Origin: Zingiber officinale
Taxonomy: Eukaryota; Streptophyta; Magnoliopsida; Zingiberales; Zingiberaceae
Assembly (NCBI RefSeq): GCF_018446385.1
Contig: NC_056000.1
Coordinates: 31,140,011 to 31,204,010, forward strand
Length of the DNA stretch: 64,000 nt
Direction of reading: 5' to 3'
Shown: positions 2,101 through 60,948 of the stretch, piece after piece
How positions within the stretch are numbered: position 1 is the stretch's first letter
How the letters are laid out: each line of letters starts with the position of its first letter
Position numbers and translations under genes: made by a program
Notes under the pieces: generated by a model
What the model was told of the DNA's origin: nothing
The model's input: only the letters and a program-made list of their open reading frames with translations
The model's database searches: none

Positions 2101-3957
2101 TGTTGGGGCAATTTCCCTAGGTCAAGTTTGACCAGTTTGACTAAGCTTGAGTTGAGTCAAGCTTGAGTCGGGATTTGAGTTTTGATGTTTGACAATATAT
2201 AGAGATTGTTAGGGCAATCGTCCGTTTGACAATATATGGAGATTGCTGGAGCAGTCGTCCGATTATGGAGATGGTCAAGGGATTGACCAGGTTGATGAGA
2301 AGACAAGTCAAGTGGGTCAGTGTTGACTGGAGACTTGATCGGGTAAGTACTAACTTGAGTTTAGGCAATGGAAAAGTCCTAACTGGAGTTTAGGTAATGA
2401 AAAAGTCCTAACTGGAGGTTAGGTAATGAGAAAGCCTTAATTGGAGAGTAGGCATCTGGAAAAGTCTTAACTGGAGGTTAGGCAAGAGAAAAGTCAAGTA
2501 GGTCAAAGTTGATAGGAGACTTGACTGGGAAAGTCCTAATTGGAGATTAGGCAAAGGTAAGCCCAACAAGAAGGTTGGCAGGAGTGAAAATCCAAGTAGG
2601 TCAGTGTTGACCAGACTTGGTGGTGAAAGTCTTGATAAGTGAGATCAGACAATTGGGAAGTCCAAGTGTGATCTTGACAAAGGTTGTAAGTCCAAGCATG
2701 TGGTCTTAGCAAGGTAAGTCCTAGTGTGATTTGGCAAGGAAAACTCGATAACTAGGATGAGGCTGAAGGAAGCTCCTAAAGGTAAGGCGTGAAGGATGGG
2801 TAGATATCCGAGAGACGCAAGGCTGATGGAGGAGGCTAGAAGGCTAGTTCGAGGTTGATCGAGTGTCGCGTATAATCCGACAACTAGGATAAGGCCGAAG
2901 GAAGCTCCTGAAGGTAAGGCGTGAAGGATGGGAGATATCCGAGGGACGCAAGAATAATGGAGGAGGCTAGAAGGCTAGTTCGAGGTTGGTCGGGGTGGCC
3001 AAATGCTAGGCATGGAGACTCAACAGGTCACGGTTGACCGGGAGTTGGGTTGGAGACTTTGGACTTGAGTTTGAGTCAAGTCCAGGTTGTTCAATCGATT
3101 GAACCAGGCTCTAATCGATCGGTCGATCGATTGGAGTGTGCTCGAGTGTGGGATGGCTCCAATCGATCGGTCGATTGATTGGGAGCATTACTCGCGAGCA
3201 CAGAAGCCATCCCAATCTATCGGTCGATCGATTGGGAGCTACTAATTGATCACTCGATCGATTAGGGAGGAAAAGCTCTCTCACGGACACGAGAGCACAG
3301 AATGGTTCTAAATCGATCGACCGATCGATTCGGATGATCCCAATCGATCGGTCGATCGATTGGGAAGTGACCGTTGAGTAGGAAACGAGCAATGGACGGC
3401 TGGGATTGTGCAAATGTGCCGTGGCAATCGATTGGGACTAATTTGGATCGATTGGGAGCACTGTATAAAGCCTGGCGCGGAGCGTTTTCTTCGATAGAAC
3501 TTTGCGTTCTTCCTGCGATTGTTTGTGCGATCTTCACCGAGCTTCTTCCGATCTTCATCGCCAGTTCTTGAAAGCTCTTGGGGTGCATCTCCAAGGTTCA
3601 AGAGGCAACCTACATCAGCAAGATCAAGCAAGGAGAGGTTTTATTTTATATACTTGTGTATTTTCTTCTTGTTTGCGTGATTATTGTTGTGAGGTGTTTG
3701 TGTAAGGCTTCTCCGCCTTTGGCTGCGACCGAGAAGGAGTGTTTCATAGTGGATGTGTGTGCTCGGTGTGTGGATCCTTGGATTAGTCATCTCTTCTTGA
3801 GGCGGATACCAAGTAAACCATAGGTGTTAGCGTTGTGAGTATTGTGTTTTGTTTTGTCTTTGTATTCCGCTGTACATTATCAAGACGAAGCAAACGACAC
3901 AAGGAGCGCGACGAAACGCTATTCACCCCCCCTCTAGCGGGCACAAAGGTCCCAATA
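2101..3957 (+). mobile_element. 3' LTR of element A (Sirevirus-like Copia)
   Basis: It starts TGTTGGGGCAATTTCCC right after a purine tract. It ends in the usual Sirevirus tail: ATTCACCCCCCCTCTAG at 3920-3936, then GGTCCCAATA, where a final CA appears mutated to TA. A TATA box (TATAAA, 3474-3479) follows a dyad array. The 3' part holds the outer stem CTTGG / CCAAG (3777-3781 / 3809-3813) that other LTRs here share. Its first 100 bp resemble the minus-strand LTR start of element D. The exact 3' end is uncertain by about 12 bp. Confidence 0.75.
3092..3479. promoter_or_regulatory. Dyad array and TATA box in LTR A
   Basis: Seven or so inverted repeats of CCAATCGATC / GATCGATTGG type run from 3092 to 3460. 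The best is 3340-3363, with 10-bp arms around a GGTC loop. They stop just before TATAAA at 3474-3479, so they sit in the U3 promoter-proximal region. Confidence 0.75.
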
Positions 3958-16714: not shown

Positions 16715-16749
16715 CTTGGAGTAGGAGTCACCCCAGGCTCCGAACCAAG
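16715..16749 (+). other. Conserved two-tier stem-loop, LTR C copy
   Basis: The outer arms CTTGG (16715-16719) and CCAAG (16745-16749) enclose the inner arms GGAG (16724-16727) and CTCC (16738-16741). The unpaired AGTA and GAA bulges are the same as in LTRs D, F and H. Confidence 0.7.
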
Positions 16750-20593: not shown

Positions 20594-21023
20594 GGAGTGT
20601 TTCTTATGAACTTTTTTGTATCCCCGCCGTTCGGCCAAACTTATTTTTGCTGTAACTTTTTTGGTTAGCCCTGTGCTTAATAGATAATCTTTTCCTTTCC
20701 TTCAACTTTTGTTTTGGCAAGAAATTTTTCTCTCGTCATAACTAAAGTGTTTTTTAAAACTCCTCCGCTCGGCACCACGCTCTGTCAGACAAAAGTCGAT
20801 TGTTTTTAATAACGTCTTTCATCATGCGACTGAGCAGCTGCTCGGCATGAGAACGCCCTTCGTTGGTATGGTAATTATCTTTAGTTCTCATTGACCAATT
20901 TTTGCTTTGTGCCTTACCCCCAAAGGGGTTTTCCGTATATTTTTGATAAGCGAGCCGCTCAGCCGTATGTTGGTCTTAACAACCAGGCTATCGTTGATTG
21001 TATCATGTGAATGGCTATCCGGT
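20594..21023. other. Spacer between the antisense ORF and the tandem array
   Basis: Non-coding, with GCTCGG-rich pieces scattered in T-rich sequence. It occupies the place where integrase would be expected in a full Tat element. Nothing recognisable remains of it. Confidence 0.5.
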
Positions 21024-21471
21024 CGGACGTTTATAGACGCCGGCTCGTCTCTCGATATTTAACGTCGGAGCTCGACGGTCTTCCACTCGGACGTTTATAG
21101 ACGCCGGCTCGTCTCTCGATATTTAACGTCGGAGCTCGACGGTCTTCCGCTCGGACGTTTATAGACGCCGGCTCGTCTCTCGATATTTAACGTCGGAGCT
21201 CGACGGTCTTCCGCTCGGACATTTATAGACGCCGACTCGTCTCTCGATATTTAACGTCGGAGCTCGGCGGTCTTCCGCTCGGACGTTTATAGACGCCGGC
21301 TCGTCTCTCGATATTTAACGTCGGAGCTCGACAGTCTTCCGCTCGGACGTTTATAGACGCCGACTCGTCTCTCGATATTTAACGTTGGAGCTCGACGGTC
21401 TTCCGCTCGGACGTTTATAGACGCCGGCTCGTCTCTCGATATTTAACGTCGGAGTTCGATGGTCTTCCGCT
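21024..21471. repeat. 64-bp minisatellite, seven copies, inside the Tat element
   Basis: The unit begins CGGACGTTTATAGACGCCGG and repeats seven times with a 64-bp period and a few substitutions per copy. It directly abuts the truncated reverse transcriptase, whose frame runs into it just after the YVDD motif. The unit contains the dyad GTCGGAGCTCGAC. Confidence 0.9.
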
Positions 21472-22471
21472 CGGACGGACTTAATGAGAATGTCGTCCAC
21501 ATAAACTTCTAGATTCCGCCCGATCTGCTCTCTGAATACTTTATTCATCAAGCGCTGATATGTGGCCCCCGCATTCTTTAATCCGAACGACATCACATTA
21601 TAGCAATATGTGCCGTCGGCCGTCACGAAGCTGACTTTTTCTTGATCTTCACGGGCGAGCGGCACTTGGTGATAGCCCTGGTAGGCGTCGAGCATACAGA
21701 TTAATTCACAGGCAGCCGTAGAGTCCACCAGCTGATATATCCGAGGCAGAGGATAAAAGTCTTTTTGGCAAGTTTTGTTGAGATCCCGAAAATCTATGCA
21801 TACTCTCCACTTGTTGCCCGGCTTGGAGACTAATACTACGTTAGCCAACCAGCTCGGGAACTGCACCTCGCGGATATGGCCGGCCTCCAAGAGTTTCTCC
21901 ACCTCCGCTCGGATGATGGCATTCTGCTTGGCGCTGAAATCTCTTTTTCTCTGCTTCACGGGCCGTGCGTCCGGTCGGACGTGTAGTTCATGCTGCGCTA
22001 TACTTGGTGAAATTCCGGGCAACTCGTGTGTCGACCAGACGAAGACATCGTGGTTTCTCCTGAGGCATTGAATCACCTCCTCTTTCTGGTTGGCCTCCAG
22101 ATCGGACGCGATGAATGTTGTAGCCTCCGATCGGGTGGGGTGTATCTGTACTTCCTCTTTTTCTTCGTAAACTAAAGAGGGAAGCTTTTCAGTTATAGCA
22201 TTCACCTCGATCCGTGGTGATTTCCGAGCGGAATTGACTTCTGCTCGGACCATCTCGATGTAGCATCACCGAGCGGCCAGTTGGTCTCCCCGTACCTCTC
22301 CTACTTTGTCTTCGACGGGAAACTTGATCTTCTGGTGGAAGGTTGAGACGGCTGCCCGAAACTCGCTAAGCGCCGGTCGTCCCAAAATGACGTTGTAGGA
22401 TGAGGGAGAGTCCACCACCACGAAGTTCACTGTCCTCGTCCTCCTGAGCGGCTCTTCTCCCAGTGAGATGG
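21472..22471 (-). pseudogene. Tat pol fragment: protease tail and N-terminal reverse transcriptase
   Basis: From about 22253 the frame runs through a pol linker and RT: PVKQRKRDFSAKQ, KWRVCIDFRDLNKTCQKDFYPLP, LDAYQGYHQVPL, SFGLKNAGATYQRLMNKVF and the active-site YVDDILIKS (minus strand, about 21503-21477). Three more codons of motif later the sequence passes into the tandem array, so thumb, RNase H and integrase are gone. Between 22265 and about 22535 the protease-RT linker has a TGA and a frameshift separating it from gag. The wording YVDDILIKS and the gag type place it in the Tat/Athila group. It cannot make active enzyme. Confidence 0.85.
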
Positions 22472-25692: not shown

Positions 25693-25723
25693 CGAGGTTC
25701 GGAGATGATACTCCTACTCCTCG
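25693..25723 (-). other. Conserved two-tier stem-loop, LTR D copy
   Basis: Minus strand: outer CGAGG (25723-25719), AGTA, inner GGAG (25714-25711), loop, CTCC (25704-25701), GAA, outer CCTCG (25697-25693). Compared with CTTGG / CCAAG in other LTRs, two outer pairs are changed on both sides. The twin in the 5' LTR (29946-29976) has TGAGG / CCTCG, a G.U-compatible change. Confidence 0.75.
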
Positions 25724-29905: not shown

Positions 29906-31703
29906 ATGAAACAAAGAATAGAAAACCTTAAACTCGATGATGTAACGAGGTTCGGAGATGATACTCCTACTCCTCAGCGTGTCCGTAAGGTGGACGAAGC
30001 CTATCAATCCGTCGGTGGATGAGACCCCGGATAACCGACTAATATGAACTCCTTCTGGGTGGAGAAACCTCGCCACAATCTCTCTTACAACAGCAAGAAT
30101 GGAGTACAATAAATAGAAAAAGAAAACAAGAACAATATAAATGTAAAAACACCTTGCTTGCCTTCTCGTCGACTGGAGTTCGATGAAGCAGCAACTTCAC
30201 AATGTCAACAGCAACTGATCACCCAGTCGAGGGAAGCTCACACGAAGCTTCAGGAATAGGGAGCTCAGCAAATCTCAGATCGCAAGAGTGAGGAAGAAGA
30301 ACTAGTAAAGTAGAGGCCCTCGACCTCGATATATAACCTGCGAAGAAGAAGACACATAAACTAGCCGTTGTGTTGCAACGGCTAGGGCCTGGACCGATCA
30401 TGCACACTCCTGATCGGTCCAGGAGTGTTCTGATCGGTCTTGGGACCGATCAGCCAACTCTCTGTGAGAGTTGGCCTCGTCTCTGATCGGTCTGTGGACC
30501 GATCAGGACTCAGGTGGATCGGTCCACAGACCGATCCCCCCTCTTTCTTCTCCCGATCTTCTTCGCTTCTGATCGGTCACCAGACCGATCAGGTAATTCA
30601 CAGAAACACACTGTTTGGTTACTGATCGGTCACCAGACCGATCAGTCAACCAGCATATCACTGGATCGGTCACCAGACCGATCCAGGTTTAGAGCTCCCA
30701 GCCCTAAACCCTACATAGTCCGGAGAACGAGCTACCGAGCCCTCTCCGACTTCGTCCGGTCCAGAGAACGAGCTACCAAGCCCTCTTTGACCTAGTCCGG
30801 AGAACGAGCTACCGAGCCCTCTCCGACTCCATCCGGTCCAGAGAACGAGCTACCGAGCCCTCTCTGACCTAGTCCGGAGAACGAGCTACCGAGCCCTCTC
30901 CGACTTCCACGTCCGGTCCAGAGAACGAGCTACCGAGCCCTCTCTAACCTAGTCCGGAGAACGAACTACTGAGCCCTCTCCGACTTCATCCGGTCCAGAG
31001 AACGAGCTACCGAGCCCTCTCTGACCTAGTCCGGAGAACGAGCTACCGAGCCCTCTCCAACTCTGTCTGGTCCAGAGAACGAGCTCCCGAGCCCTCTCTG
31101 ACTTCGCATGCCAAGCTTCCATACTTGGACTTTTCCCGTGCCAAGCTCCTTGCTTGGACTTTTCCGTGCCAAGTCTCCATATTTGGACTTTACTCGTGCC
31201 AAGCTCCCTGCTTGGACTTTTCACTAGATGTCTGGTCAACCTTGACTTATCTGGATTTCCCTTGCCTGGCTTCACTCACCAGGACTTTCCAATTACCTGG
31301 CTTCACTCACCAGGACTTTCCCTTGCCTGGCTTCACTCACCAGGACTTTCCCTTACCTGGCTTCACTCACCAGGACTTTCCAACTACCTGGCTTCAGTCA
31401 CCAGGACTTTCCCTTGCCTGACTTCACTCACCAGGACTTTCACCTGGCTTCACTCACCAGGATTTCCCGAATCAGGTCGACTCACCTCGGGTCAACCAGG
31501 TCAACCAGGTCAACCTTGACCAAAGATTACACCCACAATCTCCCAAGTTTGTATTCTGTCAAACATCAGAATACAACTTTTCTACTCTCGTCAAACATCA
31601 GAATAGAGCTTTTCTATTCTCGTCAAACATCAAAATACAACTCGAGTCAGGTCAACTCGAGTCAGGTCAACCAGGTCAACCTTGACCTAAGGTTGCACCA
31701 ATA
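29900..31703 (-). repeat. Truncated 5' LTR of element D
   Basis: It is homologous to about 25649-27378, including a TATATA at 30330-30335, a dyad array at 30391-30690, a 55-bp minisatellite at 30717-31110 and the CACCAGGACTT array at 31260-31465. The inner end stops at GTAGAAATGAAAC (about 29901) and joins gag directly. Confidence 0.8.
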
Positions 31704-31959
31704 ATTACTATTCACCTTCATATATATTTGTATGATTTTATTTCTTTGGAAGAATTATATTAGATTGTCCTCCGAAGCGATCAAGGATCGCGAGTCTTGG
31801 AGTAGTAGTTGTTGGACTACGAACTAAGTAAAAATAAACTATGTTCTTACTTTATTTCCACTACTATTATTTTAATTTGGATTTACAAAACAAGACAAAA
31901 AAAGGTTCTAAAACAAACGAGATTCTCCTCCTCTCTCTCTCGTATTCTACGATCCTACA
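31704..31959 (+). mobile_element. Host LTR H, right part
   Basis: It continues LTR H after element D and ends TACGATCCTACA at 31959. It carries the stem-loop at 31796-31828: outer CTTGG / CTAAG and inner GTAG / CTAC. The inner pair differs from GGAG / CTCC on both sides. Confidence 0.6.
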
Positions 31960-35779: not shown

Positions 35780-38700
35780 ATGGCGCCCTCCTCCGATTCC
35801 GATCTCTCCAAACTCCTTCCGCGCGTCCTCATCGTCTCCCGCCGCTGCGTTCGCAAAAACAAGTTCGTCGATTTCGTCGGTGAGTATCCTGCTTTCCGGA
35901 TCATTTTGTTCGTCCAAAGTCGATGAGAAGATTGAGATGGATCGATCTTGAAACAGGGGAGTACCATTTGGATTTGATCGTGGGATACGGCGCGGTGCCG
36001 GTGATCGTGCCGCGGGTCGCGGGCGTGCACATGCTCCTCGAGAGCTTCGAGCCGATCCACGGCGTGTTGCTGTGTGAGGGAGAGGACATCGACCCGTCCC
36101 ACTACGCTGCTGACGCCTCCGGGGGCCTATCTTCCGAGGAGCTCGACGAGATCCGCAGCCTGCACGCCAGCGACGCTACCGTCGACCGCGAGAAGGACTC
36201 CATCGAACTCTGTCTCGCCAAGCTCTGCCTCGAGCGCAATATTCCCTTTCTCGGCATCTGCCGCGGTTCGCAGGTCCTCAATGTGGCTTGCGGCGGATCC
36301 CTGTACCAGGACGTGGAGAAGGAGCTCCACAGGAAGAGCGGTGTCGGGGCCGTCGTCGAGCACATCAACTACGGCGACTACGATGGGCACCGGCACGAGG
36401 TGAAAGTGGCGGAAGGGACGCCGCTGCACGAGTGGTTTGCAGAATCACTGAGGCCAGAGGAGATGACGATCGCGGTGAACAGCTACCACCACCAGGGGGT
36501 GAAGCGGCTGGCGGAGCGGTTCGTGCCGATGGCGTTCGCGGCGGATGGTTTGGTGGAGGGTTTCTATGACCCCGATGCGTACCATCCGGACGAGGGCAAA
36601 TTCATCATGGGCTTGCAGTTTCACCCGGAGCGCATGCGTCGGCCCGGATCCGAAGAGTTCGATTACCCTGGTTGCCCTAAAGCTTATCAGGTACATCAAT
36701 TATATTTGTTATATCTGTTTACATCGATTGCAACTTCCCTTACCGCATATGGAATTTTCATATACTGAAGTGGTGCTACGATCTCATATAGTTTTCATGA
36801 TTAACAATTTTTAGGGAAAATGCCACTGTTAAAATGAGACGTATGCAGATAAACAAGATGAAATAGTTAACATTAGTCGTGATAAAGAGAATTTTATTAT
36901 TGGTCATCATATATGCATCACTTCATCCACACTCTGCAATGAGCTTTTTCAATCATGAGGCAGTAGAATACCATAACAGATAAGAAACCACTGGTACTAC
37001 TTGTTTATATTATTTCCCTATAAATCAGTTGGGGCAAACAACAAACTAAATAATATCGTAAATTCAATACAGTAATCTAATATTTATGAATGCAATTGAT
37101 GTTGGTGGTACCACTCAGAAAATATGAATTCACTTAATCCCAACAATCTAGGTGCAATTTCCTTTCTCTTTTCTTCTGTCTCCAACAGTTTTAGTAGATA
37201 GTTGGCACTAATTACATAGAACTGTACAATAATGACATGACCGATGGAACCCATTGGTAGGTGACTTCATAGCTTTCACGTTGAAAGTAGATAATCAAAC
37301 AAAAAGGTTGTCGACTTTTCTGATTTCAATAAACAAATCAGCACAACCGAATAATACGTAACACTTTCACGGCTACATACATCATTTAATATTTTAGTTA
37401 GTTATTCAATAAAATAAACATTCCTATTAATCAAATCATGATAGTGTGCTAAACTAGTCTCTTGCTCTATCGAAAAAATATTCAGAAAAATTTCTGGAGT
37501 GTCACCCTATACATGAAGCCCTAACTAATCTTGTGCTACAAAATAAAGTCAATATTCAATTAAATTCTATAACAAATAGTTAGTTAAGAAGGATACACTC
37601 TGAATGGACCGAGAAACATCTTCACTTCCCCTCTAAAACTAAACATGGTATGCTTCAATATCTCATATCTCTTATTTTCTTTCTCTAAATATCAACTGCA
37701 CCAGTTCCTCCTCTTCCTCCTCCTCCTCCTCCTCTTTCTCCTTCTTCTTCTAATGTTCTATGCAGGTTTCTTACTCTCCATGCTAGACAATTTTCTCCAA
37801 ATTCAACAGCTCCCACTTCTCTTCCTTTTTGCTCAGTCCTGTGTTGCAAGCCTCTTCTTCTTCCTCTTTTCTTCTCCTGAATTATTCCATTCTTCTCTTT
37901 CGACTCTTCACACTCTATCTTTTCTTGCTCTCTCTCTCCACCGCCCAACCGTCTCTTCTCTTCGCCTTTAATCATCCGCTGACCTGAGCACTCCGTACGC
38001 TGACGCTGGCATCCTATAAAGAGTCCGAGTGTCTATTTTTTTTTTTTTTTTTGTTTGGGCTACACTCTTGGACTGGTCTGTTGGGCCTCACTGTTGCTCT
38101 ACTTCAAGTGAGTTAGAATACTAGACAAGAGTTATAGACTTATCAGATTGATAGAACATCAGCTCAATAATGAAATTATGGAGCTCCCATGGGCTAGCGC
38201 AGATGGTTAACGCAGAAGAGTTATCAAAGCGGGTGCGGAATGCTCCTTTAGTTGCCTCACCGCTCATCCCTTTGATTTACCTCCTTCCAGAAAGTGTAAG
38301 GCCGCTCTAAAGGGGCCGCAATTTCATATTTTGCAACAGAATAATGAAATTATATAGTTAGATACTTGAATTATAAAAAAAAAAATTATACAAAAAGCAT
38401 ATCAAGTAAAATAGTGAATTAATTAGACAGCACTTTCAACAAATGAATTATTATATACGTATATATTATTTTTGAATGTTTGTAAGATGAATCTTTCATT
38501 TTAAGTTTATTTATTGCTGTGTTTGAAATATTACTTTTGATATATAGTATGTTATCATGGGGATCTAAACAGGTGAACGTATCGATTGTGATGGTATCGT
38601 TTTCTGAGGAATTGGGCAGGCTATACATCTACGGTTATAATGTTTTAGTGTGCTGTTTTGTTATGGCACTAGAATTAACTTAACAATGGTTGGTTAGCGA

Positions 38701-48831: not shown

Positions 48832-48872
48832 TGTTGGTGCGGTTAGCACTAACGGTCTAACTCAGGTTTTGA

Positions 48873-51528
48873 TGTAAAATACTGGAAAAATGACGAATAT
48901 TAATAAGGGAATTTTCCAGAATTTTTGGATATTTTTCGGGAATTTTTCGGAGCTCGTATGGACGAGTTAGCGGGGACCGGAACGGGGCCCAGAAAAGTCT
49001 ATTTGGGCTATCCGATTTAAGTGAGGAATTGTTCCTTTAATAAATTCTTTTATTAAATATTTCTTATTCTTTTTTTCTCTCTTATATCGCCGAATTCCTT
49101 AAGCCCGACCCGCACCTCATCTCTTCCCCGACGCCGCCGACTACTCCAAGCCCTAACCGCTGCCCTCTCCGCCGCCGAAGCCTTCACCCCTCGGTGCCCT
49201 AGCCACCCGACGCCGAGCCACTGCCGTCGGCGACGCACAGAGCAGGGCCGGTCAGCTTCCTCCTTTCTCCCAAGTCCGATTTCTCTGTGCCCTTCTTCCT
49301 CTCTGCCGCGTCTTGGCACAGCGCCGATCGCCTCTCCCTCCGCCCGGAGCAGCGCTGCCGCCGGCCTTCCTCAGCCCTAGAGCTTTCCCTCCGATCGTCG
49401 AGCAGAGCTTCTGCCCTAGCCGAGCGCCTTCGATTACTGCCGCCGGCACCTCTTTCATTCCGAGCAGTGCAGATTTGATCTAGGGCTCGAGTTCGGTGGC
49501 ACATCTCTCCCCTTTTGTCAATTCAGTCACGTACGTTTACTGTGATAGTGCTGAATTGGGATTACCGGTGGCCGGATTTGGAGGTAGATTTTCCTTGTAT
49601 ATTTGGATTTAGTAGTAGGGTGTTATCCTTGCTAAATCTGCCAACCAAACTGAGTTGTGCAGGGATATCGTCACTTCCGGCTAGATTCGAGGAAAAACTG
49701 TAGCTTGTTGCTGGAATCAATACTGTCCCACTGTTTCTTGGTGAGTTTTGGATAGAAGTAAGAGCATTGTTATTAGAATAAATATAGATTACATGGTTAG
49801 GTATCAAGTTCATGTATTAATCTGACACAATTTGATTGTAGATAATTGGAGATACCTAATCCATTGTAGTTGTGGAAAGGGTTAGGGTTAGTGAGTTAAC
49901 TCTAATTGAATAATGAAATTATGATTTGGTTTAGTTAATGAAGGCATGATAGAATTAACTAAATTAAATATGGACACAGGACTTTGACGCGAGACGAGTA
50001 TCTCGGAGTCAGGATTTGGACCATTTTATCGGAGGCGGGTACTTTTGACTTATTGTCTTTGATATGCTTAGTAATGAAAATAATATGTTGCATTAATTGT
50101 GTTCCCTATTTACTTCGGTTAGTCACTGCCCAATACATGTTACCTGTTTGATTGATTGTTTGATTGCATCTCGTATTGGTCTTGTACCTGATCTATCATG
50201 CTCATGGGTAGTGATATAACCACGTTTCACATGTTCAGGACCTAGGTTTGATACCTTATTGATCAGTATATCTTGATATGATTCATTCGCTTTTGTGCAC
50301 ATTATGATATGTCCAGAGGTTGGATTAGTATATTACCATGTTTAGTGACATGCACCATTTGCATGATCGCATGCTGTGCGATAGATTGCTCCATTATTGT
50401 CGAGCACATTGCCAGTTTCATCACTGTTCGGTGCTCCGTTGTGACGCTCATGGGTAGCGAGATATAGCGTGGTAGCACGTCAGTTTGACTCTTCCGGTGC
50501 TCCGTTGATCCGCTCAGGGGTGTGATGCAGCGTGTAGCACGTTAGAGATCCCTCCCGTCACAGCGTCCGGGAGTTGAGAGCATTGCGCCCCCATTTATGA
50601 TTTGGGGTAGAAGTACGTATGTACTCCGACAGCATCCGTCCACTCGATCACTCATCGAGTAGTGTTGTTGAGTGCACGGTTGTCACAGCCTACCCATCTC
50701 CCCATCGTTGTGTGAGTGACTGACTGGCGTCGGGGTGACCATGACATTGGCATCATATGCATGATGCATTTTAGTTGTGTTTGTGTTTGTTGCACTTATA
50801 TGCCGCATATTGCTTGGATACCTTGATTGACATGCATACAGGTCTTCTATACCTTCTGACTGTTTTTACCGGGTCCTGGTTAGTATGGATTCTCTCCTGT
50901 CTTCTTTGGTTTGTAGTTACCTTTATCTTTATCAGATGATGCATGATTAGTGCTAGGTGTTATTTCTTTACTTTGCATATCAATTGTACCTGCTGAGTGT
51001 TGGACTCACCCCGCCTCCATTGTTGTTATTTTCAGGTTGATGCTGTCAGGAGGGAGTTCCAGTCGCTAGTCCCCACAGCACGTAGTGCTAGTCCTCTGCT
51101 GGGTTGAGTTGTTATTTTATTTTAGTTTTTTTTTATTCTCTATCAGACTTTGTTTTAGTCTTGTTTTGGATTTTTCATATGGATATTGTATGGAATCCTT
51201 TCGTTTGATGGACCTTTGATATGATTTGGATTTTATTCTACTATATGCCTGCCTGGACGGCAGAAGAGGTGGGTTCGTCGGTTTTGAGCTTTACGAGTGT
51301 AGTGGAGTAGGGTGGATTTCGAGTCAGAGTTTTATTGTTTTGTTTACTATTTTATTAACTGCGTGGTCGTGGCAGCCAGAGGCTGAATACTTATATAAAC
51401 TGCGTGGTGATTGATTTTATTTACTGTTTTTATTCCAGCCGCCTGTGGCTGAGGTATTTATGTATGTAGAAAGTTTCAGATTGTCCGTCGTACAGGGGAG
51501 ATGCTGCCGACTCCTCTGGGGCGTGACA
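48873..51528 (+). repeat. 5' LTR of the Tekay element
   Basis: 2656 bp. Positions 49090-49480 are strongly GC-rich. The first 1.6 kb is nearly identical to the 3' LTR, whereas about 50520-50960 differs by many small indels. No clear TATA box was chosen. Confidence 0.92.
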
Positions 51529-57150: not shown

Positions 57151-57161
57151 GTGGGGGAGAA
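57151..57161 (+). promoter_or_regulatory. Polypurine tract of the Tekay element
   Basis: GTGGGGGAGAA directly precedes the 3' LTR start at 57162. Confidence 0.85.
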
Positions 57162-59835
57162 TGTAAAATACTGGAAAAATGACGAATATTAATAAGGGAA
57201 TTTTCCAGAATTTTTGGATATTTTTCGGGAATTTTTCGGAGCTCGTATGGACGAGTTAGCGGGGACCGGAACGGGGCCCAGAAAAGTCTATTTGGGCTAT
57301 CCGATTTAAGTGAGGAATTGTTCCTTTAATAAATTCTTTTATTAAATATTTCTTATTTCTTTTTTCTCTCTTATATCGCCGAATTCCTTAAGCCCGACCC
57401 GCACCTCATCTCTTCCCCGACGCCGCCGACTACTCCAAGCCCTAACCGCTGCCCTCTCCGCCGCCGAAGCCTTCACCCCTCGGTGCCCTAGCCACCCGAC
57501 GCCGAGCCACTGCCGTCGGCGACGCACAGAGCAGGGCCGGTCAGCTTCCTCCTTTCTCCCAAGTCCGATTTCTCTGTGCCCTTCTTCCTCTCTGCCGCGT
57601 CTTGGCACAGCGCCGATCGCCTCTCCCTCCGCCCGGAGCAGCGCTGCCGCCGGCCTTCCTCAGCCCTAGAGCTTTCCCTCCGATCGTCGAGCAGAGCTTC
57701 TGCCCTAGCCGAGCGCCTTCGATTACTGCCGCCGGCACCTCTTTCATTCCGAGCAGTGCAGATTTGATCTAGGGCTCGAGTTCGGTGGCACATCTCTCCC
57801 CTTTTGTCAATTCAGTCACGTACGTTTACTGTGATAGTGCTGAATTGGGATTACCGGTGGCCGGATTTGGAGGTAGATTTTCCTTGTATATTTGGATTTA
57901 GTAGTAGGGTGTTATCCTTGCTAAATCTGCCAACCAAACTGAGTTGTGCAGGGATATCGTCACTTCCGGCCAGATTCGAGGAAAAACTGTAGCTTGTTGC
58001 TGGAATCAATACTGTCCCACTGTTTCTTGGTGAGTTTTGGATAGAAGTAAGAGCATTGTTATTAGAATAAATATAGATTACATGGTTAGGTATCAAGTTC
58101 ATGTATTAATCTGACACAATTTGATTGTAGATAATTGGAGATACCTAATCCATTGTAGTTGTGGAAAGGGTTAGGGTTAGTGAGTTAACTCTAATTGAAT
58201 AATGAAATTATGATTTGGTTTAGTTAATGAAGGCATGATAGAATTAACTAAATTAAATATGGACACAGGACTTTGACGCGAGACGAGTATCTCGGAGTCA
58301 GGATTTGGACCATTTTATCGGAGGCGGGTACTTTTGACTTATTGTCTTTGATATGCTTAGTAATGAAAATAATATGTTGCATTAATTGTGTTCCCTATTT
58401 ACTTCGGTTAGTCACTGCCCAATACATGTTACCTGTTTGATTGATTGTTTGATTGCATCTCGTATTGGTCTTGTACCTGATCTATCATGCTCATGGGTAG
58501 TGATATAACCACGTTTCACATGTTCAGGACCTAGGTTTGATACCTTATTGATCAGTATATCTTGATATGATTCATTCGCTTTGGTGCACATTATGATATG
58601 TCCAGAGGTTGGATTAGTATATTACCATGTTTAGTGACATGCACCATTTGCATGATCGCATGCTGTGCGATAGATTGCTCCATTATTGTCGAGCACATTG
58701 CCAGTTTCATCACTGTTCGGTGCTCCGTTGTGACGCTCATGGGTAGCGAGATATAGCGTGGTAGCACGTCAGTTTGACTCTTCCGGTGCTCCGTTGATCC
58801 GCTCAGGGGTAGTGTGACGCAGCGTGTAGCACGTTAGAGATCCCTCCCCGTCACAGCGTACCAGGAGATTTGGGGTAGAAGTACGTATGTACTCCGACAG
58901 CATCCCGTCCACTCGATCACTCATCGGGAGTAGTGTTGCTGAGTGCACGGTTGTCACAGCCCTACCCACTCGGTCCCACTGTTGTTGTGAGTCGGCTGAC
59001 TGGCGTCAGGGGTGACCATGACATTGGCATCATATGCATGATGCATTTACTGTTTGTGTTTGTGTTTGTTGCACTTATATGCTGCACATTGCTTGGATAC
59101 CTTGATTGACATGCATACAGGTCTTCTATACCTTTCGGACTGTTTGTCCTTTTACCGGGTCCTGGTTAGTACAGATTCTCTCCTGTCTTCTTCGGTTTGT
59201 AGTTACCTTTATCTTTATCAGGAGACTGTACGCATGATTAGTGCTAGGTGTTATTTCTTTACTTTGCATATCAATTGTACCTGCTGAGTGTTGGACTCAC
59301 CCCGCCTCCATTGTTGTTATTTTCAGGTTGATGCTGTCAGGAGGGAGTTCCAGTCGCTAGTCCCCACAGCACGTAGTGCTAGTCCTCTGCTGGGTTGAGT
59401 TGTTATTTTATTTTAGTTTTTTTATTCTCTATCAGACTTTGTTTTAGTCTTGTTTTGGATTTTTCATATGGATATTGTATGGAATCCTTTCGTTTGATGG
59501 ACCTTTGATATGATTTGGATTTTATTCTACTATATGCCTGCCTGGACGGCAGAAGAGGTGGGTTCGTCGGTTTTGAGCTTTACGAGTGTAGTGGAGTAGG
59601 GTGGATTTCGAGTCAGAGTTTTATTGTTTTGTTTACTATTTTATTAACTGCGTGGTCGTGGCAGCCAGAGGCTGAATACTTATATAAACTGCGTGGTGAT
59701 TGATTTTATTTACTGTTTTTATTCCAGCCGCCTGTGGCTGAGGTATTTATGTATGTAGAAAGTTTCAGATTGTCCGTCGTACAGGGGAGATGCTGCCGAA
59801 ATTTCTTCGGACAGGGACTCCTCTGGGGCGTGACA
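57162..59835 (+). repeat. 3' LTR of the Tekay element
   Basis: 2674 bp, the twin of 48873-51528. It has an extra block AAATTTCTTCGGACAGGG near 59799 and several small indels between 58805 and 59235 relative to the 5' LTR. Confidence 0.92.
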
Positions 59836-60134: not shown

Positions 60135-60781
60135 GAGTAAAGGTAAGTCACTGGAAGGGAGTGACTGTGAGGTCGCGTTCCCGGGAAGGGAACATTAGGC
60201 GTCGATCCGGCTTAGATCCATTTCGGATATCTAAGTCAAGATCGTGACTAGATTTCGGTCTCGGAAAGACAGAATCTAAATCATACTCTTTTATGTTAAA
60301 CTTATGAACTGTGCTAACACTTTATTTTGCAAGATATACATTATCTATTTGCCTCGGACTAACCTTGTTTTGCAGGAAAGGTGTTCCCTGGAAAAACGTG
60401 GTCCGGCCACCCGGAGGTCCGGGCGCTCGGAAGGGATCCGGGCGCTCGGGAGACAACTTTTATCCTGAACGAGTCGTCGCCACGTGGAGCTCGCTGGTTG
60501 GACCTGTCACATCTCATCAGGGTGCCCGGAAGGGATCCGGGGCGCCCCGAGCCTCATATAAAAGAAGGGACAGAGGCAGAGCTTCAACAACAACTTAGAA
60601 CTCTCAGACTGCTCTACTGTGCTCCTGCGACGCCTCAAGGCTACTCTGACAAAGCGCTGTCTTCAGTTTACTTCTTTTCAGTTTGTTGGTATTAATTTTT
60701 TATTAGCATTCCTGTAATTCTTTATTGTAACATTCTGAATTGCTAGTGAATTGCCCAACGAAAGCACCCTTGTGTGCGGGC

Positions 60782-60816
60782 CTTGGAGTAGGAGTCGCCA
60801 AAGGCTCCGAACCAAG
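60782..60816 (+). other. Conserved two-tier stem-loop, LTR F copy
   Basis: Outer CTTGG (60782-60786) / CCAAG (60812-60816), AGTA bulge, inner GGAG (60791-60794) / CTCC (60805-60808), GAA bulge. It lies about 220 bp downstream of the TATA box and therefore within the transcript leader. Confidence 0.75.
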
Positions 60817-60931
60817 TAAAATTGGTTCTTGTGTTATCATTGCATTGTTTTACTTTTTCGCTGCATTTACTCAACGAATTTTTCGTAATCGATATTCACC
60901 CCCCTCTATCGAACGTCTACGATCCAACAAG

Positions 60932-60948
60932 TGGTATCAGAGCAGGTA
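60932..60948 (+). promoter_or_regulatory. Primer-binding site of Sirevirus F
   Basis: TGGTATCAGAGCAGGTA, two bases after the LTR, is the Met-tRNA primer site typical of Copia elements. Confidence 0.85.

Follow-up and report, generated by a model that had tools for sequence, protein, structure and literature searches.

A Covarying Two-Tier Hairpin in Sirevirus Long Terminal Repeats of Ginger and Its Possible Place in Primer Positioning

Introduction

Is a small hairpin that recurs in the long terminal repeats (LTRs) of ginger retrotransposons maintained as an RNA structure and, if so, what could it serve? The question is raised by a stretch of 64,000 nucleotides (nt) of Zingiber officinale (contig NC_056000.1, positions 31,140,011 to 31,204,010), hereafter the window, in which several Sirevirus-type LTRs carry a stem-loop of two tiers, with AGTA opposite GAA in the internal loop between the outer and the inner stem. 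A sequence-only reading of the window had described this element in the LTRs labeled C, F, H, and D and in a twin of D. The hairpins are conserved by paired changes, and they are located before the integrase signal and the primer-binding site (PBS), after the TATA box in F and in most copies of the lineage to which C and F belong (C/F). To that first description the present analysis adds the likeness of the internal loop letters to the sarcin-ricin motif, a covarying hairpin directly before the element, and tRNA-complementary stretches downstream. Sireviruses are abundant in plants and, according to a published abstract, make up about 21% of the maize genome.

The Hairpin in the Window

All five hairpins were recovered where the sequence-only reading had placed them, each with nine of nine pairs (Table 1). 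The fixed layout that it had described also holds: a 5-nt arm, AGTA, a 4-nt arm, a loop of 6, 8, or 10 nt, a 4-nt arm, GAA, and a 5-nt arm. The compensated stem changes were correctly given as well, namely CTTGG/CCAAG to CGAGG/CCTCG, GGAG/CTCC to GTAG/CTAC, and the G·U cases. LTR A keeps the outer arms, as had been claimed; AGTA/GAA is absent there, and its lineage mostly has ATTAGT or ACTAGT opposite GATA. Two more places in the window match with eight of nine pairs (20041 on the plus strand and 14391 on the minus strand). Thirty first-order shuffles of the window gave zero matches with all nine pairs and between zero and two with eight per shuffle.

The two-tier hairpin is the predicted minimum-energy fold of all five copies, with modest single-copy folding z-scores (−1.1 to −2.0), and LTR A is predicted to fold differently. 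The inner stem of C and F comprises 6 base pairs (bp; GGAGTC/GGCTCC), longer than the 4 bp first noted. Downstream of the hairpin, the sequence of the twin of D enters a frame that weakly matches a zinc knuckle, and this LTR therefore seems to be cut short. No Rfam family matched the window above its gathering score. In the C/F copies, a second hairpin is found immediately upstream. Its stem P2 (6 bp, mostly with a 3-nt loop) has GCCC/GGGC on its flanks, for which the stem P1 was proposed from folds. In the following, this is hairpin 1, and the reported element, with outer stem P3 and inner stem P4, is hairpin 2.

Table 1. Coordinates of the hairpins and of the associated LTR features in the window (expectation value, E; minimum-energy fold, MFE).
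Feature	Positions	Strand	Remarks
Two-tier AGTA/GAA hairpin, copy F	60782..60816	+	Exact pattern match, MFE fold, covariation
Copy F, outer stem P3	60782-60786/60812-60816		E 4.2e-5 over structure pairs
Copy F, internal loop	60787-60790 and 60809-60811		AGTA opposite GAA
Copy F, inner stem P4	60791-60796/60803-60808		Apical loop 60797-60802
Two-tier AGTA/GAA hairpin, copy C	16715..16749	+	Lineage shared with F
Two-tier AGTA/GAA hairpin, copy H	31796..31828	+	Upstream stem GCGATC/GATCGC likewise there
Two-tier AGTA/GAA hairpin, copy D	25693..25723	-	Within 3' LTR of element D
Two-tier AGTA/GAA hairpin, twin of D	29946..29976	-	
Related hairpin, LTR A	3777..3813	+	Outer stem the same; internal loop of the ATTAGT/GATA lineage, not AGTA/GAA
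Upstream hairpin of element F	60753..60781	+	Lineage alignment and folds
Upstream P1 of F	60753-60756/60778-60781		GCCC opposite GGGC
Upstream P2 of F, variable stem	60764-60767/60774-60777		GCAC opposite GTGC; abuts the reported hairpin
TAAA right after the outer stem, element F	60817..60820	+	
TATA box, LTR of element F	60557..60564	+	TATAAAAG; precedes the hairpin by about 225 nt
Putative D-arm contact of initiator tRNA-Met	60856..60864	+	All 9 positions pairable to GCAGCGGAA, G·U allowed
PolyC integrase signal	60894..60908	+	ATTCACCCCCCTCTA; Sirevirus hallmark
Putative T-loop contact of initiator tRNA-Met	60918..60925	+	TACGATCC; at the LTR end
PBS, element F	60935..60943	+	TATCAGAGC; complement of the final 9 bases of the initiator tRNA-Met gene

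Element F and the Position of the Hairpin in the Leader

Element F was assigned to the Sireviruses (Pseudoviridae) on three features: the polyC signal, the PBS, and a copia-type gag, its frame matching Retrotran_gag_2 (PF14223) with an E of 5.8e-16. The first two of these, the polyC signal and a short PBS, are named as Sirevirus hallmarks in the accessible part of PMC2829016. The pol of the element falls beyond the window. An ACCCCCC signal is present after LTRs A, C, D, and F, and it is not found in simple form after H. Among 30 protein matches to element F, the best one with a plant name comes from Curcuma longa, with Zingiber lower. The top gag match is filed as Salmonella; two proteins recorded under Salmonella enterica, 67% and 58% identical to the gag of F and located on contigs of about 1.1–1.3 kb, probably represent plant DNA that entered bacterial assemblies.

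The LTR of element F ends near 60929. A place outside the transcribed region would have spoken against an RNA structure; the hairpin of F is instead found between the TATA box and the PBS, and therefore it should be part of the 5' leader of the genomic RNA, whatever the poly(A) site.

Genome Survey of Sirevirus LTR Ends

The first 100 matches to the polyC integrase signal, chosen without reference to the hairpin, were used to survey LTR ends in the same 3.09 Gb genome. This sample was drawn from the initial 7.4 Mb of a single contig together with the window, and thus from one genome of one plant family. Across the genome, the signal pattern has 60,999 matches, against 18 for the reversed pattern. 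The AGTA/GAA hairpin, counted where at least four of five outer and at least three of four inner pairs form, was present in 33 of the 100 LTR ends, with the hairpin end 61–144 nt before the signal. Control counts with 300 drawn pairs of loop letters (AGTA/GAA excluded) averaged 0.75 of 100, the maximum being 19 (TAGC/TTT). Another 53 LTR ends have a hairpin at the same place with a different internal loop.

By similarity, the 100 LTR ends fall into an A-type group of 53, a C/F group of 28, a D group of ten, a group of five, and four unclustered LTRs. The AGTA/GAA hairpin occurs in 26 of the 28 C/F copies, in seven of the ten D copies, and in none of the 53 A-type copies. All A-type copies can form the outer stem (at least four of five pairs) together with a 6-bp inner stem (at least five of six), and 48 do so fully, in the best-pairing register. 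Their internal loops are ATTAGT/GATA (39 copies), ACTAGT/GATA (11), and other variants (three). By eye, four members of the group of five have ATTAA or similar letters opposite TAA and inner arms like CAACC/GGTTG, and the fifth (L045) has ACGTA/GAA. The Sirevirus lineages thus appear to share one hairpin scaffold with lineage-specific internal loops. A TATA[AT]A match was present in the fetched stretch of 23 of the 28 C/F copies and of six of the nine copies outside the three large groups.

As a separate observation, seven D-type LTRs (L013, L022, L037, L038, L052, L053, and L103) have other hairpins upstream of hairpin 2, with GTCC..GGAC plus AATCC..GGATT or GATC..GATC, which likewise seem to change in pairs.

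A pattern with a 10-nt loop and free stems has 62,411 matches in the ginger genome, against 9,669 for its reversed form. In IMG/VR no plant Sirevirus was found, and one scan of the GTDB genomes for the integrase signal together with the PBS returned nothing. Three IMG/VR contigs matched the hairpin pattern (L001 1332–1361, L002 824–853, and L003 1777–1806). They are nearly one sequence, sharing GGAGTAGGAGT..CTCCGAACC, and the outer stem was not seen by eye; these matches were treated as a chance hit of a single virus, which they probably are.

Covariation of the Stems

Covariation was assessed with our own tree-aware script, written in the manner of R-scape, whose null moves the substitutions of each branch to random columns. 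The tree was built from alignments that contain the hairpin. The larger set consisted of 97 C/F-lineage copies, 31 from an earlier test plus 66 added ones, so the two tests are not independent. The added copies were picked by a pattern in which the stems were free and AGTA, GAA, and TAAA were fixed; their loop letters are therefore no evidence of conservation. Among 78 newly fetched places, 12 were dropped before the test because the surrounding sequence looked unrelated by eye. An integrase-like signal was missing from 25 of the 78, of which 14 were kept for their clearly homologous flanks, and one of the dropped places had a signal-like match.

With 97 copies, the column pairs 38-66 of P3 and 19-27 of P2 scored above every null value (200 nulls of 2,485 pairs each), which corresponds to an E of 0.005 over all pairs and of 4.2e-5 over the 21 structure pairs. 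The pair 18-28 of P2 reached 0.0012 over structure pairs and 0.145 over all pairs, and no other pair was significant. The covariation check suggested by the sequence-only reading, run here in essence on copies of this one genome, yields significant pairs in both the outer stem and the upstream stem. Taken together, 1836 of 2031 stem cells are paired (90.4%), with a null mean of 63.8% and a null maximum of 69.5% (60 nulls). Double changes averaged 40.8, with the pair kept in 28.4; the null gave 16.0, with 5.0 kept on average and at most 11 (50 nulls). P2 has 44 forms among the 97 copies, and 16 fully paired forms account for 66 of them. In the 31-copy test, the E over structure pairs was 2.8e-5 for 19-27, 0.0026 for 18-28, 0.028 for 17-29 (all P2), and 0.006 for 38-66 (P3); over all pairs, 19-27 alone fell below 0.05. 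For hairpin 2 in 43 C/F and D copies, the top four column pairs were all stem pairs (E of 0.0075, 0.029, 0.06, and 0.1 over structure pairs). The suggestion that the element is selected as RNA structure is thus supported by the covariation, together with the presence of the hairpin in a third of unselected LTR ends.

The Fixed Internal Loop

While the stems change, the internal loop is nearly invariant. Among 43 copies, 38 from the unselected sample and five from the window picked in the sequence-only reading, the letters of AGTA are present in 43, 43, 42, and 41 and those of GAA in 40, 43, and 43; three D-type copies have AAA instead of GAA. A permissive pattern, matched by all of them, was used to find the 12 D-type rows in this set. 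AGUA opposite GAA between two helices is the combination of letters that marks the sarcin-ricin motif (also bulged-G or loop E motif). These letters stand between two Watson–Crick helices in the C/F, D, and H copies and not in the A-type copies. The internal loop of the hairpin may adopt the three-dimensional sarcin-ricin motif, and such a fold would account for a 4+3 internal loop that stays the same although the stems on either side of it vary. In ribosomal RNA (rRNA), sarcin-ricin motifs are docking sites for proteins and RNA.

Complementarity to the Initiator tRNA

Besides the PBS, stretches of U5 in many LTR ends can pair with the initiator tRNA-Met encoded in the same genome. The initiator pattern has 85 genome matches, and ARAGORN calls tRNA-Met(cat) in five of six loci tested. 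On the 72-nt tRNA gene, the PBS matches positions 64–72, the T-loop sequence GGATCGAAA starts at 51, and the D-arm sequence GCAGCGGAA starts at 12. Among the 8-mers of the 140 nt that precede the integrase signal, TTCCGCTG is the most frequent (67 of 100 LTRs). The PBS, searched as TATCAGAG, follows within 90 nt in 38 of the sampled LTR ends. Of these, 33 could form the D-arm helix, 22 the T-loop helix at the end of the LTR, and 21 both. The predicted D-arm helix has 8–14 bp (G·U allowed) and begins 78–119 nt before the PBS. The T-loop pattern at the LTR end was found at 23 of the 38 junctions and in 0.8% of shuffles.

Watson–Crick runs of at least nine to the initiator tRNA-Met, counted within 105 nt before the integrase signal by a measure chosen after the whole-duplex energy test, occur in 20 of 28 C/F, 41 of 53 A-type, and two of ten D copies. 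Such runs were found neither to the reversed tRNA nor to tRNA-Gly, and in 0–2% of shuffles. Complementarity to the T and D arms exceeds chance in the C/F and A lineages and is weaker in D. Nine D-arm positions are pairable in the window copies A, D, and F, eight in C, and seven in H. As a further observation, the segments 60856-60864, 60918-60925, and 60935-60943, together with the LTR ends L012–L111, suggest a three-part primer contact in Sireviruses. Pairing of this kind would then take place in the particles. The 9-bp Sirevirus PBS has been called paradoxically short (PMC2829016, in the part available), a paradox that additional D-arm and T-loop contacts would resolve.

What the Leader Domain May Do

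The explanation that we favor, and quite possibly the right one, is that the R/U5 leader (the repeat and unique 5' regions of the LTR) of Sirevirus genomic RNA contains a structured domain that serves primer placement, packaging, or both. In the C/F lineage, hairpin 1 (P2 with its GCCC/GGGC flanks) abuts hairpin 2 (P3, the AGUA/GAA loop, and P4). These are followed by UAAA, a U-rich stretch, the U5 segments predicted to pair with the D arm and the T loop, and the 9-nt PBS. The domain would position U5 and the primer tRNA for the initiation of reverse transcription, mark the genomic RNA for packaging by Gag, or do both, with the sarcin-ricin-type loop as a possible rigid docking site for protein or RNA. 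A role in replication is favored because the domain is located in the leader before the PBS, beside the tRNA-complementary segments.

Several observations weigh against this explanation. The commonest lineage (53 of 100) lacks AGTA/GAA, so not every Sirevirus needs a sarcin-ricin-type loop. Covariation in the 97 copies gives P1 no support and the nearly invariant P4 almost none, and the P2 pair 17-29, significant with 31 copies, was lost with 97 (E of 0.34). When hairpin 2 was considered alone (43 copies), no pair fell below 0.05 over all pairs, the best reaching 0.34. The D-arm run of at least nine is absent from the CAACC/GGTTG lineage (0 of 5) and from the unclustered LTRs (0 of 4). Whole-duplex energies were discriminating only for C/F and did not separate the D, A, and CAACC/GGTTG lineages from shuffles. 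Finally, a TATA box was found in the fetched stretch of none of the ten D copies and of only four of the 53 A-type copies; the promoter in these lineages may be further upstream.

A more specific and distinctly unlikely extension of the leader-domain explanation can be formulated. The hairpin would be a convergent counterpart of the loop E module of rRNA and viroids, capturing a host RNA-binding protein (ribosomal or 5S-rRNA-binding, e.g., TFIIIA) into the replication complex, and the lineages would swap docking loops on one scaffold beside a three-part initiator-tRNA site.

The hairpin and the extra tRNA complementarity together offer an answer to why the Sirevirus PBS looks too short. By pattern count, a covarying hairpin with sarcin-ricin letters is present in tens of thousands of copies. 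The packaging, priming, and 3'-end models become testable with short RNAs.

Alternative Explanations

The main rival of a replication role, although somewhat unlikely, is that the hairpin is an element for 3'-end formation in R. In the 3' LTR, it would bring TTGTA/TGTAA near GTAAA and the U-rich cleavage region, and poly(A) would be added just after the hairpin. This agrees with the TAA or TAAA found right after the outer stem, both in the 33 AGTA/GAA copies of the sample and among the A-type copies, where CAAGTAAA is present in all 53; the D copies of the window have TTAC in place of TAAA. From the nearest upstream TTGTA/TGTAA to the hairpin end the distance is 92–97 nt for 23 of 28 C/F copies and 112–116 nt for 49 of 53 A-type copies, and the T content is 40–72% in the 10–40 nt after the hairpin. 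However, the hexamer differs between lineages (AAGTAAA versus CGTAAA), the upstream signal is scattered in the D-type copies, and in the CAACC/GGTTG lineage its nearest match falls inside the hairpin. A poly(A) role also leaves the sarcin-ricin-type loop unexplained. In PMC3601003, poly(A) addition in a model of the Sire LTR is placed at CAACAAA. This word was found at scattered places in ten of the 100 sampled LTR pieces, and thus it favors neither a 3'-end role nor its opposite.

It is unlikely that the hairpin serves translation or RNA stability, for example by recruiting a host protein or the ribosome to the long leader. Sarcin-ricin motifs do dock protein and RNA in rRNA, and the hairpin of F is within the 5' leader, but no observation made here ties it to translation. 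In Ty1, a single leader has functions in translation, packaging, and priming alike, according to the available part of PMC5454406.

A DNA-level element, such as a protein-binding inverted repeat, or an inherited remnant without an RNA role is very improbable. LTRs are DNA regulatory regions and the single-copy z-scores are modest, but the asymmetric internal loop is kept and the stems change in pairs beyond the tree-aware null. In addition, the stems occur in many sequences, as in the fully paired forms of P2, which fits pairing better than a DNA site. Equally far-fetched is a kissing-loop dimer initiation site, which would be in line with the dimerization of Ty1 and retroviruses via leader hairpin loops (PMC5454406, in part) but has to contend with a variable triloop and a variable 6–10 nt loop, no conserved self-complementary apical loop or hexamer having been seen by eye in the listed copies.

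Other Features of the Window

A tandem array of 64-base units with seven register copies extends over 20954-21540. An open frame at 35884-36768 with a Peptidase_C26/class-I glutamine amidotransferase domain is possibly a host gene between retroelements. An LTR pair at 48872-51510 and 57161-59799 (97% identical) delimits an element with Ty3-type capsid, aspartyl protease, reverse transcriptase–RNaseH, and integrase zinc-binding domains. TATCAGAGC also follows the first LTR of this Ty3-type element.

Comparison with Known Systems

The mostly openly available literature compared here (including PMC3601003, PMC2829016, PMC3362945, PMC10975798, PMC5393176, PMC3854523, PMC4974528, PMC5454406, and PMC8739226, as far as accessible) describes neither the hairpin nor any D-arm contact in Sireviruses, and it reports no LTR retrotransposon with a loop of the sarcin-ricin type. 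A search of the literature for sequence words matched the short string AGTAGGAGTCG alone, in 11 papers with unrelated titles. Bousios et al. (2010; PMC2829016) describe, among the conserved motifs of Sireviruses, the polyC integrase signal, the TATA box, and the PBS junction that are also seen here. In that work, an inverted repeat at the polypurine tract is described as a stem-loop, whereas this hairpin and the D-arm match are not mentioned in the accessible portion.

The sarcin-ricin loop of plant 26S rRNA is given as AGUACGAGAGGA (PMC8739226, in part). As in that loop, 5'-AGUA-3' is opposite 5'-GAA-3' between two helices in the hairpin. Compared by letters alone, the two differ in that the hairpin is found in a retrotransposon leader and has an apical loop of 6–10 nt rather than GAGA.

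Contacts between U5 and the primer tRNA are also known from retroviruses, namely the primer activation signal of human immunodeficiency virus type 1 and the U5-TPsiC interaction of Rous sarcoma virus. There, a U5 segment 5' of the PBS pairs with the T arm, as the T-loop segment may do here; unlike in these viruses, the present elements are plant Pseudoviridae, the tRNA would be the initiator tRNA-Met, and a D-arm contact is possible as well. Among the yeast elements described in the available part of PMC4974528, Ty3 has a primer site split into three segments, as suggested here for Sireviruses, two of which are in the 3' untranslated region, whereas the extra segments reported here are in the LTR. 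Ty1 also has, in addition to its PBS, segments complementary to both the T arm and the D arm of the initiator tRNA-Met (PMC4974528, same portion). In Ty1 these are 3' of the PBS, while both putative segments of the ginger Sireviruses are 5' of it, inside the LTR.
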